Origin: Candidatus Delongbacteria bacterium
GTDB taxonomy: Bacteria > UBA4055
DNA: 11,300 bases
Direction of reading: 5' to 3'
NCBI GenBank assembly: GCA_016937995.1
Contig: JAFGVM010000059.1
Location: 1 to 11,300 of the forward strand
Part shown: positions 2,961 through 11,300 of the stretch, piece after piece
Layout: every line of letters starts with the position of its first letter
Numbering within the stretch: the first letter of the stretch is position 1
The notes under the pieces: generated by a model
Seen by the model: only the letters and a program-made list of their open reading frames with translations
What the model was told of the DNA's origin: nothing
Databases searched by the model: none
Program-made: the position numbers and the translations under genes

Positions 2961-3245
2961 TTATTCATAAATACGGTTCAAATACTTTTCATAAATAGTA
3001 TCGTCCTTTTTCTTTATAACTTCATAATTTGAAGAATACGAATCAGATTTTTTTGTAATTTTTGACTCTTGCGTAGTAACAACTAAATCATCAGAGTCTG
3101 ATCTAAGTGAAGAAAATTTATCAAACTCAGTTCTGGAATTTTTGTCTACTTCAATTCTACCTTTATTTGCTTCTCCGAATATAATCGTAGTTAATAAAAC
3201 CGCAACTAACATTATGCCGTAAATACACTTCCTCGAAATCTTCAT
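2961..3245 (-). CDS. Small secreted protein, unknown function
   Basis: A 94-residue protein of no recognised family. A signal peptide is clear: basic start (MKISRK), hydrophobic core about 7-24, likely cleavage after GEA near residue 26. The mature part, about 68 residues, is highly polar, with many Lys, Asp, Glu and Ser residues (for example SSLRSDSDD) and no cysteine. It is probably an extended or disordered periplasmic peptide. It ends in an IYE-KYLNR-IYE motif in which IYE occurs twice. A strong GGGAGG ribosome binding site lies a few bases before the ATG. It is the third gene of a unit after two paralogous basic microproteins, 58 bases downstream of the second, and is followed by a terminator. 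The shared transcription suggests, but does not show, a joint role. Confidence 0.75.
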   Translation of the reverse strand: MKISRKCIYGIMLVAVLLTTIIFGEANKGRIEVDKNSRTEFDKFSSLRSDSDDLVVTTQESKITKKSDSYSSNYEVIKKKDDTIYEKYLNRIYE

Positions 3246-3955: not shown

Positions 3956-6900
3956 TTACTTCATTTTCTCTTTAAACTCGTCTTCAAAACGTTTAACCAA
4001 ATTATCACAACCATAATCAAACGCTCTTGTAAATCTATCCTGATAGCTGCTTTCAAGATCATTATACTGCTCACAACTATCCTTCATGACCTCAACTGCT
4101 TCTGCAAGAATTTCCTCATTTGAACCGTAATCAGATTCCAGACCCAGCTTTTTCATAATATTATTAAGCTGATCTGTAAAAATAACTGTCTTAGGTTTAA
4201 TTCCTGCATTAAATGCACAAAGCATTTTCTGAGTATTTGAGAAACTTCCTCCTGATTCTATAGGAAACGATGAAGGAAGAATAAGATCCGCATTTTCAGC
4301 TGTCTTTGTCATAAAATAATCCGCAACTACACTAAATTGGTTTACAGGTTGTAATTTTCTTGAATTGGCTTGATCCAAAAGAGTTCCCATAGGATCTTCT
4401 CCGAAAATAAAAATATTCTTCGGTGGAACACTGTCCTTTCTGAAATTTTCCTCTGCAATACTAACTTTACTATCCGGATACTTTTCCTTCATTGCTTCAA
4501 ACAAACAATCACATACTTCTTCATAAATACCCATATCGAACAGACCTTGTGCATTATTTTTCTCTTTAAGACAAATAATACCACTAGAGGTCTTTCCAAG
4601 CTTACCGGTTATAACTGAAAGGTTAAATATTTCACTTTGAGTTTCACGTGAAACTGATCTTTCAGAGAAAACGACCACTGCATTCTGTTCGTTATTGTAT
4701 TCAACAGCTATCTTTTTTATGGTCTCAGCATCCAGACCAGACTGCTTTACAACTTTATCAATATCGGTTTCTAGTATTTTCTTTTCGTAGTCATCATAAC
4801 CTTCAGCATTGCCATCGATGAATAATTTATTTATCAGATTATCTTTAACAATAAAATAGTTCAGAGCCTTTACAAAGTCATAATAGCTGTCAACTTTAAC
4901 TATCTTGTCTGATTTTTTATTCATTGAAGAGTTTGAGCAAGTTGTTACGTTTATCACTTCAGTACCTTTTGCTCTTGCATTATTAAGCATAAAACCAAAT
5001 ACTGCGTTATGTTTATTTGGAGTTGAACCTATCAAATATACTTTCCCTGCTTTATCTAGTTCTTTAAAAGGTGTATTTGCATAAGAGTTGAAAAGTAATT
5101 CATCAGCTCTACCCAGAAAATGGAAAGATGCTATACTGTTAGTACCAACCGCTGCTCTTGCAAGTTTATTTGTAAGATAAAGTTCCTCGTTTGTAAGTCT
5201 TGCACCCGCATAAAAGTAATTTTCTTCAGGCTTTACCGATTTTATCTTGTCGACAATAATGTTATATGCTTCGTAGAAATCTATCTCTTCGAATTTACCA
5301 TCTTTTTTAAGAAGAGGTTTAGTAATTCTCTTCTTATCGTTTAGATAAGTATAACCGAATTTAGCATATTTACAGATATTCCCGTCAGGATTTGCAAGGG
5401 TCTTTCTACCTTCAGCTTTCACAAAATATCCGTTTTTATGATGAAGATTTACACCACAACCTATAGAACAGTAGTTACAAACTGCTTCCACGATCTCTGT
5501 TTTAAAAGGTCCAGGTTTGAAAGTTTTATTTTCTGATATTGCTCCTGTCGGACATGCATCAATACACATACCACAAGATTCACAAGAAGTATCTTTCAGC
5601 GAATTCCCCAAAGAAGGAGCTAAGTAAGTATCAAATCCTCTATTAACCAATCCCAGAGCACCTGCACCAACTACTTCACTACAGATCCTTACACAACGTG
5701 AACAAAGTATACATTTATTATTATCTATCTCAATATACGGATGAGAATAATCTACATCATACTTTTTAAAATCTCCCGAGTACTTCTTTTGGTCAACACC
5801 GTACTCTGTACAATATTTTTTCAGATCACAGGTAAACAGTTCACCACATCCACACTCCAAACATCTCTCAACTTCCTTTTCAGCTTGTTCAGGTTTATAA
5901 CCAAGCTCAACTTCGTTAAAATTGTGTCTCTCTTCCGGATCAAGTACAGGCATCTCCTCTCTAGTTTGAGGATAAAATTCATTTTTAAATTCTTCCGAGA
6001 CCATGTTTTCAAAATTATCTCTTTTACTTACAAATTCAGAGCTTTCACCTACTATTTCTTGTCCTGTCAAGAATTGATGACAGCTTTTTGCTGCAATTCT
6101 TCCCTGATTCACACCTTCTATCAGTGTTGCAGCACCAGTTACTGCATCACCTGCAGCAAATATTGAAGGAACTCCGGTCTGTAGAGTTTTTGGATCAGCA
6201 GCTATATCACTCCACTTGTTAAGTTCGAACTTTCCGTCAGCTAGACTGTTTATGTCATCAACGAAATCAACTACTGTCTTCTGACCGATCGCTGAAAGAA
6301 TATAATCCAGTTCAAGATCAAATTCAGAACCTTCTACAGGTACAGGTCTTCTTCTTCCTGAATCATCAGGTTCACCAAGTTCCATTTTGATGCATGTGAG
6401 TGTCTTAAGTCTACCATTCTCATCCGTATTAACTTTCTTTGGAAGAGTAAGGATCATGTATTCAACACCTTCAAGTTTCGATTCATGGATCTCGATCGGA
6501 TTTGCAGGCATCTCTGCTTCGGTCCTTCTATAAATGATATAAGATTTTTTTGCCCCACATCTTAAGGCTGAACGGCAGCAATCCATAGCTGTGTTACCTC
6601 CACCTATGGTCGCAACTACTTTACCTGTAAAGTCAGGTCTTGTTTTTGGATCTTCCATTGGTCTCAGAAAATCAATACCCGCTAGAACACCTTCAGAATC
6701 CTCGTTCTCTACTCTCATTGAAGAACCTTTCCAGCATCCAACACTTGTTATCATTGCATCATAATTTTCTTTTACTTCCGCATACTTAATGTCAGTACCG
6801 AACCTTGTGTTGTATTTTATCTTAACACCCAGTTCCTTTATAGTGTCGATCTCTTTATCAAGAAGTTCGTTGGGCAATCTATAAGCCGGTATTCCATATC

Positions 6901-7600
6901 TTAACATACCGCCACCGGAAGGCATTGCTTCGATAATATCAACATCATGACCTTCAAGAGCGAGATAGTATGCTGCTGTAAGCCCTGCAGGTCCTGCCCC
7001 GATAACAGAAACTTTTTTTCCTGTCAAAGGTTTTCTTTTCGGTACAAATCTGTCACCTGCAGCAAAATCGACATCAGTAGCATATCTTTTCAGATAATCA
7101 ATACCTACACCGGTCTCATCTATTAAATTTCTTCTACAGGCAACCTCACAAGGTCTTACACATACTCTACCGCAAATAGCAGGAAGAGGATTTTTTTCTT
7201 TGATCAGACCAACTGCTTCTGAATACATACCTTTGTCTATCAGAGCAAGATATCCCTGAACGTCAACTCCGGCTGGACAGGTAAGCTTACAAGGAGCTAT
7301 ACAATCTGCGTAATGATTACTTAAGAACAGCTCTAAAGCAGTTTTTCTGGATTTATTAATTCTTTCATTTTTTGTAGTGATCTTCATGTCATTATTTATC
7401 TTTGTAGAACATGCCGGTTGCAATGTTCTCCATCCTTCGATCTCGACTACGCATAAGAAACATGAAGAATAAGGCTTTAATCTTTCATCATGACATAGTG
7501 TGGGTATAGCAATACCGTTCTTTCTGCAAAGTTCAAGAATAGTATCGCCTTTGTTACCGGTGAACTCTTTATTATCAATATATACTTTAATTGCTTCCAT
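3956..7600 (-). CDS. NuoG/GltD/formate-dehydrogenase-like fusion oxidoreductase
   Basis: A 1214-residue iron-sulfur flavoprotein. Domain order: NuoG-type [2Fe-2S] ferredoxin (1-80; C36, C47, C50, C64); cysteine-rich GltD N-terminal domain for two [4Fe-4S] clusters (H96, C100, C104, C108, then C143, C147, C151, C155); GltD/NfnB-like FAD-NADPH module (GAGPAG 201-206, GGGNTAMD 333-340, YRRTEAEMPA 357-366, AAGDA 482-486); a Cys-rich linker (580-597); a two-cluster ferredoxin (C630/633/636/640 and C673/676/679/683); a molybdopterin-oxidoreductase [4Fe-4S] domain (C708, C711, C715, C743); and a formate-dehydrogenase-like domain (757-1135). The catalytic Cys/Sec-His position appears to be F826-H827, and the C-terminal molybdopterin-binding domain is missing, so this part may be a structural relic as in NuoG. 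The arginine pair in the second nucleotide site fits NADP(H). An AAGGAA ribosome binding site precedes the ATG, 17 bases after the HndC-like gene. It stands where cluster relatives encode the [FeFe]-hydrogenase; no H-cluster motifs are present. Confidence 0.9.
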   Translation of the reverse strand: MEAIKVYIDNKEFTGNKGDTILELCRKNGIAIPTLCHDERLKPYSSCFLCVVEIEGWRTLQPACSTKINNDMKITTKNERINKSRKTALELFLSNHYADCIAPCKLTCPAGVDVQGYLALIDKGMYSEAVGLIKEKNPLPAICGRVCVRPCEVACRRNLIDETGVGIDYLKRYATDVDFAAGDRFVPKRKPLTGKKVSVIGAGPAGLTAAYYLALEGHDVDIIEAMPSGGGMLRYGIPAYRLPNELLDKEIDTIKELGVKIKYNTRFGTDIKYAEVKENYDAMITSVGCWKGSSMRVENEDSEGVLAGIDFLRPMEDPKTRPDFTGKVVATIGGGNTAMDCCRSALRCGAKKSYIIYRRTEAEMPANPIEIHESKLEGVEYMILTLPKKVNTDENGRLKTLTCIKMELGEPDDSGRRRPVPVEGSEFDLELDYILSAIGQKTVVDFVDDINSLADGKFELNKWSDIAADPKTLQTGVPSIFAAGDAVTGAATLIEGVNQGRIAAKSCHQFLTGQEIVGESSEFVSKRDNFENMVSEEFKNEFYPQTREEMPVLDPEERHNFNEVELGYKPEQAEKEVERCLECGCGELFTCDLKKYCTEYGVDQKKYSGDFKKYDVDYSHPYIEIDNNKCILCSRCVRICSEVVGAGALGLVNRGFDTYLAPSLGNSLKDTSCESCGMCIDACPTGAISENKTFKPGPFKTEIVEAVCNYCSIGCGVNLHHKNGYFVKAEGRKTLANPDGNICKYAKFGYTYLNDKKRITKPLLKKDGKFEEIDFYEAYNIIVDKIKSVKPEENYFYAGARLTNEELYLTNKLARAAVGTNSIASFHFLGRADELLFNSYANTPFKELDKAGKVYLIGSTPNKHNAVFGFMLNNARAKGTEVINVTTCSNSSMNKKSDKIVKVDSYYDFVKALNYFIVKDNLINKLFIDGNAEGYDDYEKKILETDIDKVVKQSGLDAETIKKIAVEYNNEQNAVVVFSERSVSRETQSEIFNLSVITGKLGKTSSGIICLKEKNNAQGLFDMGIYEEVCDCLFEAMKEKYPDSKVSIAEENFRKDSVPPKNIFIFGEDPMGTLLDQANSRKLQPVNQFSVVADYFMTKTAENADLILPSSFPIESGGSFSNTQKMLCAFNAGIKPKTVIFTDQLNNIMKKLGLESDYGSNEEILAEAVEVMKDSCEQYNDLESSYQDRFTRAFDYGCDNLVKRFEDEFKEKMK

Positions 7601-7617
7601 ATAAGATTCCTTAGGGT

Positions 7618-9405
7618 TTAGTTTACATCAATAGCCTTGAACTTACAAGTATCTAAACATGCACCGCACTTTATGCACTTGTCCTGATCTATCACATGCT
7701 TTTCTTTTCTTTCTCCGCTGATCGCTTTTGGCGGACATACTCTAGCACATGCTGTACATCCTATACACTGATCATTTATTCCAAAAGTTAAAAGAGGTTT
7801 ACATGCTTTTGCAGGACACTTTTTATCGTAAATATGTGCTTCATATTCGTGTCTAAAGTACTTCAAAGTGGTTAATACAGGATTTGGAGCTGTTTGACCA
7901 AGACCGCAAAGAGATGAATCTTTTATCTGTGCTGCCAATTCCTCCAGCTTTTCTATATCTCCTTCTTCTCCATTTCCATCACATATTCTTTGCAAGATCT
8001 CAAGCATCCTTTTTGTTCCTACGCGGCAGAATGTACATTTACCACAACTTTCTTCCTGAGTGAAATTAAGGAAATATTTAGCAACATCCACCATACAAGT
8101 CGTTTCATCCATAACTACCATACCACCGGATCCCATAATGGCACCTGTTGCATTTACAGAATCATAATCAATGATCGTATCTTCTAATTCTGCAGGAATA
8201 CATCCACCAGAAGGTCCACCCATCTGAACTGCTTTGAATTTTTTACCGTCAGGAACTCCCCCGCCAATATCAAAAATTATCTCTTTTAAAGTAATTCCCA
8301 TTGGTACTTCCACAAGTCCGGTATTGTTTATCTTACCAACAAGTGAGAATACCTTTGTACCTTTACTCTTCTCTGTACCGATTTCAGCATATCTTTCTGA
8401 ACCGTTTGATATGATCCAGGGTATATTAGCCCATGTTTCAACATTGTTAATATTAGTTGGAAGACCCCAAAGTCCTGATTCTGCTGGAAAAGGAGGTCTC
8501 TTGTTCGGCATTCCTCTTTTACCTTCAATAGACGCTATCAATGCAGTTTCCTCTCCACATACAAAAGCACCAGCACCTTGCTTTATCCGAAGATTAAACT
8601 CAAATCCCTGTTCCATAATATCTTCACCAAGAAGTCCGTATTCTTTGGCCTGCTCAATAGCTGTTTCAAGTCTGGTGATAGCAAGAGGATACTCGGTTCT
8701 TAGATAAACAACTCCCTCGTTAGCTCCAATAGCCATTGCACCTATCAACATTCCTTCAATAACTGCATGTGGATCCGATTCAATTATACTTCTATCCATA
8801 TATGCACCAGGATCTCCTTCATCAGCATTACAGATGATATATTTCTTTTCACCTTTCTGCTTTTTACAGATCTCCCATTTCAGACCTGTAGGGAATCCTC
8901 CACCTCCACGACCTCTCAATCCTGAATCTTTGATTTCCTGAACTATTTCATCAGGTGTCATCTCAGTTAGTGCTTTAATAAACGCTTTATAACCGTCTCT
9001 TCCAATATAATCATCTATTTTCTCTGCATCGATCAAACCTTTGTTACGAAGTGCTATCAGCCTTTGTTTATTGAAGAATCCGATCTCGCTCATAGTCGGG
9101 ATCTCAGTTTTTTCACCAGGTGGTGTATACATCATTTTTTTAACAGGTCTTCCCTTTAAAAAATGCTCCTCTACCAAAAAAGGAATATCTTCTATTTGCA
9201 TCAACTGATAAAAAATATCATCCGGTTGAACGACCACGATCGGTCCCTGAGCACAAAATCCCTGACAACCCGTTCCTACTACAAGAACTTCTTTATCAAG
9301 TCCCTGTTTTTTTATCTCTGCTTCCAGAGTTTTTTTAACATCGAATGCACCACAAGATACACAAGCTGTACCGGTACATACCATTAAATGAGTCCTGTAT
9401 TCCAT
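7618..9405 (-). CDS. hndC: HndC/HydB/NuoF-like NADH and flavin subunit
   Basis: A 595-residue flavin subunit of the HydB/HndC type. An N-terminal thioredoxin-fold [2Fe-2S] domain (C10, C15, C47, C51) is followed by the NuoF core: GRGGGGFPTG (165-174) and NADEGDPGAYMDR (193-205) for NADH and FMN, GAGAFVCGEETAL (277-289), then ESCGKCTFCRVG (C454, C457, C460) with C500 for a [4Fe-4S] cluster. The tail has CPAKAC (530-535) and two [4Fe-4S] ferredoxin motifs (C547/550/553/557 and C577/580/583/587). The family takes NADH electrons at the FMN; in HydABC/HndABCD this is the bifurcation centre. The start is set at ATG 9405 because GAGGGAG lies 7 bases upstream; a GTG at 9423 is in frame but has no comparable site. 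The start is separated by one base from the preceding stop. The symbol is by analogy with hydrogenase clusters; the product here need not serve a hydrogenase. Confidence 0.92.
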   Translation of the reverse strand: MEYRTHLMVCTGTACVSCGAFDVKKTLEAEIKKQGLDKEVLVVGTGCQGFCAQGPIVVVQPDDIFYQLMQIEDIPFLVEEHFLKGRPVKKMMYTPPGEKTEIPTMSEIGFFNKQRLIALRNKGLIDAEKIDDYIGRDGYKAFIKALTEMTPDEIVQEIKDSGLRGRGGGGFPTGLKWEICKKQKGEKKYIICNADEGDPGAYMDRSIIESDPHAVIEGMLIGAMAIGANEGVVYLRTEYPLAITRLETAIEQAKEYGLLGEDIMEQGFEFNLRIKQGAGAFVCGEETALIASIEGKRGMPNKRPPFPAESGLWGLPTNINNVETWANIPWIISNGSERYAEIGTEKSKGTKVFSLVGKINNTGLVEVPMGITLKEIIFDIGGGVPDGKKFKAVQMGGPSGGCIPAELEDTIIDYDSVNATGAIMGSGGMVVMDETTCMVDVAKYFLNFTQEESCGKCTFCRVGTKRMLEILQRICDGNGEEGDIEKLEELAAQIKDSSLCGLGQTAPNPVLTTLKYFRHEYEAHIYDKKCPAKACKPLLTFGINDQCIGCTACARVCPPKAISGERKEKHVIDQDKCIKCGACLDTCKFKAIDVN

Positions 9406-9406
9406 T

Positions 9407-9790
9407 CTATAGCTCCCTCTCACTTCCTATTACCAACGCATAATCTTTTACGATCTTACCCTTAAGAACATGCTCATCAAATATCCTTCTGATCTTATCT
9501 TCAGTAAGATCACTGTATTTTACCGGTGCTTCACCTTTCAATTCTATTGTTGCCATTGGTTCCTTGCTACAGAAACCAGCACAACCTGAAGTTGTTACAA
9601 TAATGTCATCCCTTTTCGATTCTTCGACAATTTTAATAACTGTATTCATGATAGTTCTCGCACCTGCAGCGATTCCGCAAGTACCCATGTGAACTGTTAT
9701 TTTTGCGTTTGAGATCCCCTCACGGAGCATAGCTGTCTTTTTAACCTTATTTCTGATCTCTTCAAGGTCTTTTATGCTTAGTTTTGCCAT
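9407..9790 (-). CDS. hndB: HndB-like thioredoxin-fold [2Fe-2S] ferredoxin
   Basis: A 127-residue protein of the (2Fe-2S) ferredoxin-domain family that sits between the NuoE- and NuoF-like genes in Hnd-type clusters. After a helical N-terminus (1-28), the fold shows VHMGTCGIAAGAR (33-45) and TSGCAGFCSKEP (67-78). Only three of the usual four ligand cysteines are present (C38, C70, C74); the position of the first is V33/H34. In relatives the role is an accessory electron-transfer or structural subunit. A GGAGGG ribosome binding site lies within the end of the preceding gene, whose stop codon directly abuts this ATG, so the two are translationally coupled. The stop overlaps the ribosome binding region of the next gene. 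The family is clear; whether this copy holds a cluster is open. Confidence 0.85.
   Translation of the reverse strand: MAKLSIKDLEEIRNKVKKTAMLREGISNAKITVHMGTCGIAAGARTIMNTVIKIVEESKRDDIIVTTSGCAGFCSKEPMATIELKGEAPVKYSDLTEDKIRRIFDEHVLKGKIVKDYALVIGSEREL
9413..9419 (-). promoter_or_regulatory. Ribosome binding site that decides the hndC-like start
   Basis: GAGGGAG on the minus strand, inside the end of the hndB-like gene, is 7 bases ahead of ATG 9405. It supports that start over the in-frame GTG at 9423, which lies upstream of the site. Confidence 0.75.
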
Positions 9791-10312
9791 TTATATTCCC
9801 TCCAGTGATTTGTAATGTTTAATGATCTTTGGTATATCGGATCTTTTCAGCTTTCCATGAACATCTTCATTAACAGTTATCACAGGAGCAAGACCACAAC
9901 AACCTAAACATGATACAGATTCCAAAGTGAAAAGTCTGTCATCTGTAGTAGCACCGTCTTCAACATTCAATTCTGTCATTAAAGCATATGTAATATCTGG
10001 TGCATTCTGAACATGACAAGCAGTACCGTGACATACTTTAATTATATATTTCCCTACAGGGTTGATCCTGAACTGAGAATAGAATGTAACAACTCCAAAG
10101 ATATCACTCTCACTTAAATTAGCTTTTTGGGAAATTTTGCTTATAGCACTTTTGGGGACATAACCGTAAATCTCCTGAGTCCCCTGTAATAGAGAGATCA
10201 TACTGCCTTGCTTACCTGCATATTTTTCCAGCAATTCATCTAAAAGGTTCAGGTCTACTGGTTCATCCGGCAAAGTTGAGAACCTGGATGGGTTTTTTCT
10301 TTTAATCCTCAT
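9791..10312 (-). CDS. hndA: HndA/NuoE-like [2Fe-2S] subunit
   Basis: A 173-residue member of the NuoE family (24-kDa subunit of complex I, HydC/HndA of bifurcating hydrogenases). The N-terminal helical part (20-75) has LLQGTQEIYGYVP and IFGVVTFYSQF, as in the family. The thioredoxin-fold half carries the four [2Fe-2S] ligands in the canonical arrangement: CHGTAC (C94, C99) and CLGCC (C135, C139). It should dock on the NuoF-like subunit and relay electrons to or from its FMN. It is the first structural gene after a strong promoter and has a GAGGG ribosome binding site. The stop codon directly abuts the start of the next gene. In context it is part of a soluble NAD(H)-linked complex, not complex I: no membrane Nuo subunits are present. 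Confidence 0.92.
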   Translation of the reverse strand: MRIKRKNPSRFSTLPDEPVDLNLLDELLEKYAGKQGSMISLLQGTQEIYGYVPKSAISKISQKANLSESDIFGVVTFYSQFRINPVGKYIIKVCHGTACHVQNAPDITYALMTELNVEDGATTDDRLFTLESVSCLGCCGLAPVITVNEDVHGKLKRSDIPKIIKHYKSLEGI

Positions 10313-10481: not shown

Positions 10482-10931
10482 TCAGAGATCATTTGAATCA
10501 AGGATAAAAGTCCCATCTTCATCAATATGAGTAAAAACAAAATTTATCTCAGGATATGATGTAAGCAAAGCAATGAATGTGCTTTTTAGATCACCGATCG
10601 GCTTTCTGTCAATATGATCATACTGAAATGTGGCTTTGACTTCTGTTCCTTCTCCGATCTTGGATCTTATGTTGAAAGTTCCATTACTTTCTTCTGATGC
10701 CTGAGATAAAAGAGATAATCCCATTCCTACTCTTCTTGTAGTCCTGGTCGTATAAAAAGGATCGAGTACTTTTTCTACAGTTTCCTCACTCATTCCTTTT
10801 CCGTTGTCGTTTATTTCTATAGCAAGAATATTATTGGTAGCATCCTCAGTAATATTTACTTCTATCCGTAAAGCTCCGGCAGCTATTGAATTCTCTACGA
10901 CATCAAGAATATGCAATGACAGCTCTTCCAT
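10482..10931 (-). CDS. Stand-alone HATPase domain protein
   Basis: A 149-residue GHKL ATPase without a histidine-phosphorylation or sensor domain. The Bergerat-fold motifs are complete: N-box ENSIAAGA (13-20), G1 box NDNGKGM (41-47), F-box DPFYTTR (57-63) and G2 box GMGLSLL (69-75). The last 50 residues form a short extra domain with no motif I recognise. Such small HATPase proteins, annotated as anti-sigma or sensor-kinase-like ATPases, are regular neighbours of HydABC/HndABCD clusters, next to a PHP gene as here; their role is not established. A GGAG ribosome binding site lies 7 bases before the ATG. The start overlaps the end of the PHP gene by 29 bases, which implies co-translation. A kinase-like or assembly function would be inference only. 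Confidence 0.85.
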   Translation of the reverse strand: MEELSLHILDVVENSIAAGALRIEVNITEDATNNILAIEINDNGKGMSEETVEKVLDPFYTTRTTRRVGMGLSLLSQASEESNGTFNIRSKIGEGTEVKATFQYDHIDRKPIGDLKSTFIALLTSYPEINFVFTHIDEDGTFILDSNDL

Positions 10932-11300
10932 CTCTGTTCTCCAGTGCTTTTTTTATTTCAGCTACAGTAACATCTTCTATTAAAAATGTAGTAGAGGTCT
11001 TTCCTATATCATGAAGAAAATGTGCATCAGAAAAAGTAACCTGAGGTAATCCTGCAGACATTGGGAAATCAAATTTATTGCTCTTCAACATATAATTTGG
11101 TGATAATTCTATACCGTCAAGATCAAGGCCTTCGGGAATAAAACCAAGCTGCCCGATAAGGCTGAACCTTTCACGATCAACATGAGAAGCTATAGCAAGA
11201 CCTCCATGGGAATGGATCAGTTCTACTATTTTTTCCACAGAAAGCTCTGTTGCTCCAATAAGAAGCCTTTCGTTCAGGGCAACGATCTCATCCTGATCAT
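10903..11300 (-). CDS. PHP-domain metal-dependent phosphoesterase, N-terminus outside the window
   Basis: Partial gene: about 132 C-terminal residues are visible and the frame stays open to the window edge. An in-frame GTG at 11238 is an internal codon, since the family-like sequence NERLLIGATELSVEKIVELIHSHGG continues across it. Metal-binding motifs of the later PHP segments are seen in IASHVDRE and SDAHFLHD. Together with the preceding helix and LDGIELSPNY this fits the PHP hydrolases related to TrpH and DNA polymerase PHP domains. The first metal-binding HxH motif would lie outside the window. PHP genes of this type commonly precede the HATPase gene in bifurcating hydrogenase clusters; the substrate there is unknown. 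It overlaps the HATPase gene by 29 bases. Confidence 0.85.
   Translation of the reverse strand, partial: DQDEIVALNERLLIGATELSVEKIVELIHSHGGLAIASHVDRERFSLIGQLGFIPEGLDLDGIELSPNYMLKSNKFDFPMSAGLPQVTFSDAHFLHDIGKTSTTFLIEDVTVAEIKKALENRDGRAVIAYS

Follow-up and report, generated by a model that had tools for sequence, protein, structure and literature searches.

The 11,300-bp stretch of DNA analysed here (the window), which is the whole of contig JAFGVM010000059.1 from a Candidatus Delongbacteria bacterium, carries on its minus strand an operon whose largest gene encodes a 1214-aa fusion protein. We read this cluster, with a probability of about 0.87, as a Sporomusa-type electron-bifurcating transhydrogenase, StnABC (Nfn-Bfu), whose core has been made recombinant by a hydrogenase-type tract. 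The replacement of a hydrogenase by a giant fusion, the point stressed in a preliminary description of this DNA, is already known biochemistry. What is new here emerges from sequence comparison: in four Delongbacteria genomes, part of the resident stnABC core derives from an operon of hydrogenase type (Hyd/Bfu). The features concerned are as follows.

3956..7600, minus strand: stnC (Nfn-bfuA), 1214 aa; PDB matches, Pfam domains, conserved ligand cysteines, K171, R241 and Gly830-Arg831
7618..9423, minus strand: stnB (bfuB, NuoF/HndC-like), 601 aa, mosaic; predicted flavin mononucleotide (FMN)/NAD(H) and ferredoxin-reducing subunit; PDB matches and mosaic structure
8974..9423, minus strand: StnB N-terminal thioredoxin-like domain of hydrogenase type, C-x4-C...C-x3-C (Acetomicrobium mobile B5 site; B5 assignment from PMC8880783)
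9407..9790, minus strand: hydD (hndB-like), 127 aa, stand-alone thioredoxin-like protein with three conserved cysteines; Pfam and sequence comparison
9791..10312, minus strand: stnA (bfuC/NuoE-like, HndA-like), 173 aa, last ~35 residues foreign and the rest native; best PDB match 8oh5_A
8560..9904, minus strand, approximate boundaries: foreign recombinant tract comprising the stnA 3′ end, the whole of hydD and stnB codons 1 to ~285; windowed identity, informative sites, segment trees and topology tests
10482..10931, minus strand: HATPase-domain gene (Pfam PF02518), an accessory gene of hydrogenase-type operons, placed alike in genomes G010 and G011 and in other hydD-type operons
10903..11298, minus strand: PHP-domain gene fragment (Pfam), its 5′ part lost at the contig end; the PHP gene is complete in G010

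Assignment to StnABC

Pfam divides the fusion into Fer2_4 (residues 3-78), Fer4_20 (100-180), Pyr_redox_2 (196-499), Fer4_Nqo3 (621-688), Molybdop_Fe4S4 (703-754) and Molybdopterin (758-1136), in agreement with the NuoG-type front, GltD/NfnB-like module, double ferredoxin and formate-dehydrogenase-like domain recognised in the preliminary description. Nearly full-length matches were obtained with PDB chains 9bov_A (807 bits, residues 2-1180) and 8oh5_C (770 bits, residues 2-1158), and 9n5u_A also matched across the first two thirds of the protein. We take 8oh5 to be the Sporomusa ovata StnABC entry of the cryo-electron microscopy (cryo-EM) study, with which its 1172-aa length agrees. A novel enzyme class was rejected since solved full-length homologues exist.

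The biochemistry of S. ovata StnABC is described in PMC7483475 and its cryo-EM structure in PMC10482914, where StnC consists of a GltD-like module binding NADPH and flavin adenine dinucleotide (FAD), a NuoG-like protein and an inactive FdhF-like end. The window protein has the same architecture: a NuoG-like 2Fe-2S front, a GltD/NfnB-like FAD-NADPH module, two [4Fe-4S] clusters and an FdhF-like domain. In a residue-by-residue alignment the ligand-motif cysteines of S. ovata StnC all have counterparts in the window, where K170 corresponds to K171 and R239 to R241. K170, located at cluster C7, is reported to be strictly conserved in StnC and takes the place of an NfnB glutamate (PMC10482914).

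The genes for StnA and StnB are neighbours in the operon, as expected of Stn/Nfn-Bfu, and the FMN site, a ferredoxin-like C-terminus and the core His-Cys-Cys site are present. The best PDB match of StnA is 8oh5_A, and those of the C-terminal half of StnB are 9bov_B and 8oh5_B. The Stn-type three-cysteine N-terminal domain of StnB is not found in the window, which has a hydrogenase-type four-cysteine domain instead; Stn membership stands because the three-cysteine domain is not part of the published Stn definition. PMC9304861 gives the same enzymes the name Nfn-Bfu and classes them as Type 1 within the Bfu family.

The preliminary description had suggested that the enzyme may be poorly described, while allowing that the fusion might turn out to be well characterised, and it is: it belongs to StnABC, as in S. 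ovata, or Nfn-Bfu (PMC9304861). Its other observations fared better. The gene series PHP, HATPase, HndA, HndB, HndC and giant fusion is all present, on the minus strand, with the PHP and HATPase genes lying beyond the segment it had delimited, which ends at the NuoE gene. It was right about a HydBC-like core that exchanges electrons with a partner lacking an H-cluster, and the fusion does recur in other genomes beside hndABC-like genes with no hydA nearby.

A mosaic core

We compared the operon among 13 genomes of the host's family, G000 being that of the window. Plain stnA-stnB-stnC was found in seven (G001, G002, G004, G005, G006, G007 and G012; stnC is cut at the contig end in G001 and G005) and hydD between stnA and stnB in four (G000, G003, G010 and G011). 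HATPase and PHP genes precede stnA in the three hydD-carrying operons for which upstream sequence is available. Both forms occur inside one genus: g1 (G000 versus G001 and G002), g5 (G010 versus G006 and G012) and g4 (G011 versus G005). G010 and G012 are collinear from within stnB onward (85.6% identity across 11 kb). The window and G002 have in common a small gene and a beta-propeller gene after stnC.

In whole-gene trees the swapped StnB falls among hydrogenase-type BfuB, whereas the StnA and StnC of the swapped operons fall among Delongbacteria Stn. Our first reading of these trees, that the whole of StnB had been swapped in from a hydrogenase operon, gave way to a mosaic once windowed identity and segment trees had been compared; the whole-gene trees conflict because the StnB segments differ in origin. 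StnB residues 1-120 have 76-85% windowed identity to the hydrogenase-type BfuB of a G003 contig (G003:C144) and 20-27% to unswapped StnB; for residues 281-320 the values are 52% and 88-90%, respectively. Informative sites relative to G003:C144 put the switch between residues 282 and 289 (78 foreign to 8 native before it, 11 to 67 after), which is our best estimate and inexact, because a foreign-like patch at ~330-391 moves the breakpoint in one reference set. Given this patch a single clean 3′ breakpoint was dropped. In StnA the switch falls between residues 136 and 140. The native parts of the swapped operons are then StnA up to its last ~35 residues, the remainder of StnB, and StnC. Consistently with the windowed values, the best PDB matches of the N-terminal half of StnB are the hydrogenase HydB chains 7t2r_B and 7q4v_B.

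Trees of the two StnB segments conflict, each following its own origin, and approximately unbiased (AU) tests reject the alternatives with p of 9e-49 for residues 1-130 and 0.009 for residues 290-601; nor do the swapped StnCs form a clade (AU p 1e-30). These p-values are not strict, since the groups were picked after the operons had been seen, yet the effect is large. Trees of 120-160 columns have poor resolution, and the donor operon is represented by the single 3.4-kb contig G003:C144, with its BfuA cut. The simplest history would be one recombination in Delongbacteria that made the swapped core, after which the cassette would have spread onto resident stnC genes.

Related arrangements are found elsewhere. 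In the StnB of locus L131 (G158:C29) the N-domain is of hydrogenase type, whereas the C-terminal part clusters with the Stn-type sequence of G295, which belongs to its family (AU p of 2e-6 and 1e-4); this second mosaic apparently arose independently of the Delongbacteria one. Outside Delongbacteria, L124, L125 and L126 (G231, G298 and G160) combine a hydrogenase-type HATPase-HydD-BfuB core with a StnC of 1256-1279 aa, and their StnA, a few genes upstream of this core, is likewise of hydrogenase type. In L127-L138, the neighbours of hydD-type BfuB cores are short BfuA-like proteins together with various partners of oxidoreductase size, in which the H-cluster motif searched for was not found; these are possible Bfu enzymes with another third substrate.

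What the tract changes

Through the tract StnB loses a three-cysteine, HydD-like N-domain and gains one of hydrogenase type, whose [2Fe-2S] motif has all four cysteines; a stand-alone hydD comes with it. Four conserved cysteines are present in all 28 hydrogenase-type N-domains sampled, and three in 15/15 Stn-type N-domains and likewise in 21/21 stand-alone HydD proteins. In S. ovata StnB, glycine occupies two of the four expected cysteine positions (PMC7483475), and the structural study models one [2Fe2S] cluster in StnB, the N-terminus having been docked from prediction (PMC10482914).

Profile comparison of the Stn-type N-domain with HydD scored 167 (40% identity) in one operon set and 145 (24%) in the other, against 95 (21%) with the hydrogenase-type N-domain. 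In a tree from a short alignment it also groups with HydD, apart from the hydrogenase-type domain (100/100). This points to HydD as the likely origin of the Stn-type N-domain; with hydD usually placed immediately upstream of bfuB, fusion of the two genes could have made the Stn-type StnB. Judged by its cysteine motifs, the swap restores the other state, with the full A. mobile B5 ligand set in the N-domain and HydD separate.

In the A. mobile enzyme 11 Å separate C1 from the N-domain cluster B5, which was regarded as a dead end; HydD, not present in the purified enzyme, was assumed to act in maturation or regulation (PMC8880783). A later proposal (PMC9304861) has C1 and B5 storing two low-potential electrons. 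We raise tentatively the idea that the StnB N-domain is a swappable redox part: the Stn type may be a captured three-cysteine HydD, the swapped operons may have returned to a four-cysteine B5 and a free HydD, and electron storage beside the bifurcating FMN may have been altered in the process.

Mechanism and alternative readings

By analogy with S. ovata, the predicted function is reversible NADPH/NAD+/ferredoxin bifurcation. There, NADPH reduces the FAD of StnC, from which single electrons pass via the StnC clusters to the FMN of StnB, and the NAD+/ferredoxin split requires the StnA cluster (PMC10482914). The conserved ligands of the window StnC suggest that it would likewise take hydride from NADPH onto FAD and pass electrons one by one along its iron-sulfur clusters to the StnB FMN. 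The StnAB core would then divide them between NAD+ and ferredoxin, with StnA as the moving gate; in vivo the enzyme may run in the reverse direction, yielding NADPH. By sequence, the hydrogenase-type Bfu tract, from stnA codon ~137 via hydD to stnB codon ~285, has taken the place of the native segment in a resident stnABC.

Several points weigh against a recombinant, bifurcating StnABC. S. ovata C114 is V114 in the window (the position is not strictly conserved, with Val in other homologues too), and homologues beyond the phylum share only about 40% identity with StnC. Delongbacteria Stn enzymes are known from genes alone, every genome is a draft metagenome assembly, and the host contig ends at the PHP gene. 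One reference set, moreover, puts the 3′ StnB breakpoint at 391/421.

Among the alternatives, the one that survives best, still improbable, is that the exchange of the core abolished bifurcation and left a plain NADPH:NAD+ or NADPH:ferredoxin oxidoreductase. Part of the FMN domain was exchanged, and so was the domain that neighbours the StnA [2Fe-2S] cluster; the new interfaces could break gating. However, the FMN loop, the NAD-site acidic residues, the B1 to B4 ligands and the core His-Cys-Cys motif are all retained; the open reading frames are maintained in four species, and the donor domain comes from bifurcating-type operons. A reductase of sulfur or oxygen that uses NADPH, with transhydrogenation as a side reaction, is rather less probable; its model would be NsoABC of Thermococcus litoralis, which is closely homologous to StnABC (PMC7483475, PMC10482914). 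Against this, NsoC is predicted to have an incomplete C-terminal domain and to be without the cysteines of the second C-terminal cluster (PMC10482914), cysteines that the window StnC retains, and Nso itself may be a transhydrogenase, as PMC7483475 suggests. That the mosaic is an artefact of metagenome binning is very improbable; the assemblies are drafts and the window is one short contig, but identical junctions occur in four species with differing StnC sequences, and the swapped operons of G010 and G011 sit on long contigs (29 kb and 41 kb). A variant formate dehydrogenase or hydrogenase, to which the FdhF-like and NuoG-like domains of StnC might point, has next to no chance, as Sec, Cys and His are all missing at the formate dehydrogenase active site, Fe_hyd_lg_C is absent and S. 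ovata Stn does not act on formate (PMC7483475).

The active-site residues are explicit. The FdhF-like domain of the window StnC reads FHFL-Gly830-Arg831 where formate dehydrogenase has Sec-His, and relatives with an apparently active FdhF domain carry the motif HCARL-Sec-HSP. With neither Sec nor Cys, nor His, at this site, formate dehydrogenase was rejected, and the FdhF-like end of StnC is, to judge from these residues, catalytically dead and structural only. The relatives just mentioned, L022, L108 and L110 (G036:C113, G183:C115 and G321:C259), are StnC-like fusions of ~1400 aa with an in-frame TGA in the motif, possibly an active selenocysteine formate dehydrogenase fused to an NADPH module. 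A BfuB-like gene was not seen within the few kb of sequence near L022 and L108.

An [FeFe]-hydrogenase (HydABC/HndABCD) was likewise rejected. In accord with the preliminary description, which saw no H-cluster in the fusion, a Pfam scan found no Fe_hyd_lg_C in StnC or the rest of the operon. The host genome has a single such gene, which lies on contig C75 and adjoins a fused NuoE-NuoF gene, and no hydA was recognised among the genes flanking the operon on the longer contigs of G010 and G011. As to NfnAB, Pfam found no NfnA-like gene in the window. In the host genome there are two PF10418 matches, on C81 and C11, and GltD-like matches on C4, C11, C36 and C66; the C11 pair lies ~8 kb apart, and among these matches there is no evident NfnAB pair, consistent with the finding that acetogens hardly ever have both Stn and Nfn (PMC7483475). 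Two further host operons (G000:C66, L025; G000:C36, L027) have a 588-597 aa GltD-like protein with ferredoxin domains adjoining a Complex1_49kDa (NiFe-hydrogenase-like) gene.

Comparison with known systems

The cluster resembles S. ovata StnABC (PDB 8oh5, 8oh9; PMC7483475, PMC10482914) in the StnA-StnB-StnC plan, the domain order, ligand cysteines and K170 and R239 equivalents of StnC, its dead FdhF-like domain and the C-terminal half of StnB. It differs in the hydrogenase-type, four-cysteine N-domain of StnB, the foreign last ~35 residues of StnA, hydD inside and HATPase and PHP genes upstream of the operon, and Val for C114. With Nfn-Bfu Type 1, such as the Thermococcus sibiricus enzyme, it shares a BfuBC core and NfnB-like BfuA; in PMC9304861 Nfn-Bfu falls in a single BfuB clade (53), whereas the window BfuB is a mosaic with a hydrogenase-type N-terminal part.

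A. mobile NiFe-HydABCSL (PDB 7t2r; PMC8880783) is the best PDB match of the whole StnB and of its first half, and its operon likewise has hydD, plus hisK. Its BfuA, in contrast, links to a NiFe hydrogenase, while the window StnC is predicted to bind NADPH and the second half of StnB is Stn-like. NfnAB shares the GltD/NfnB-like FAD-NADPH module; unlike it, the window has no NfnA partner, has Lys for Glu at the cluster next to FAD, and would be expected to bifurcate at the core FMN, not at the StnC FAD.

Neighbouring genes

Downstream of stnC the window holds a beta-propeller (DUF5128) lipoprotein-like gene and a small gene (1555-2730 and 2961-3245), kept in position in one congener (L008). A RimK-family ATP-grasp ligase is found at 85-1014 on the strand opposite to the operon.

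Significance

Our literature search found no paper joining Delongbacteria with bifurcation. The bifurcating core recombines inside genes, as this case illustrates, and therefore whole-gene BfuB trees can mislead function assignment. The mechanism by which one FMN suffices for bifurcation in Hyd/Bfu enzymes is under debate, with the role of B5 at issue. As the closely related Delongbacteria Stn pairs differ mainly in the N-domain, the StnA tail and HydD, they offer a natural test of the N-domain's role, and the cluster is a natural experiment on electron-pair splitting in such enzymes. If the swappable-part idea is true, relatives in one genus would run the same transhydrogenation with and without the canonical B5 site.

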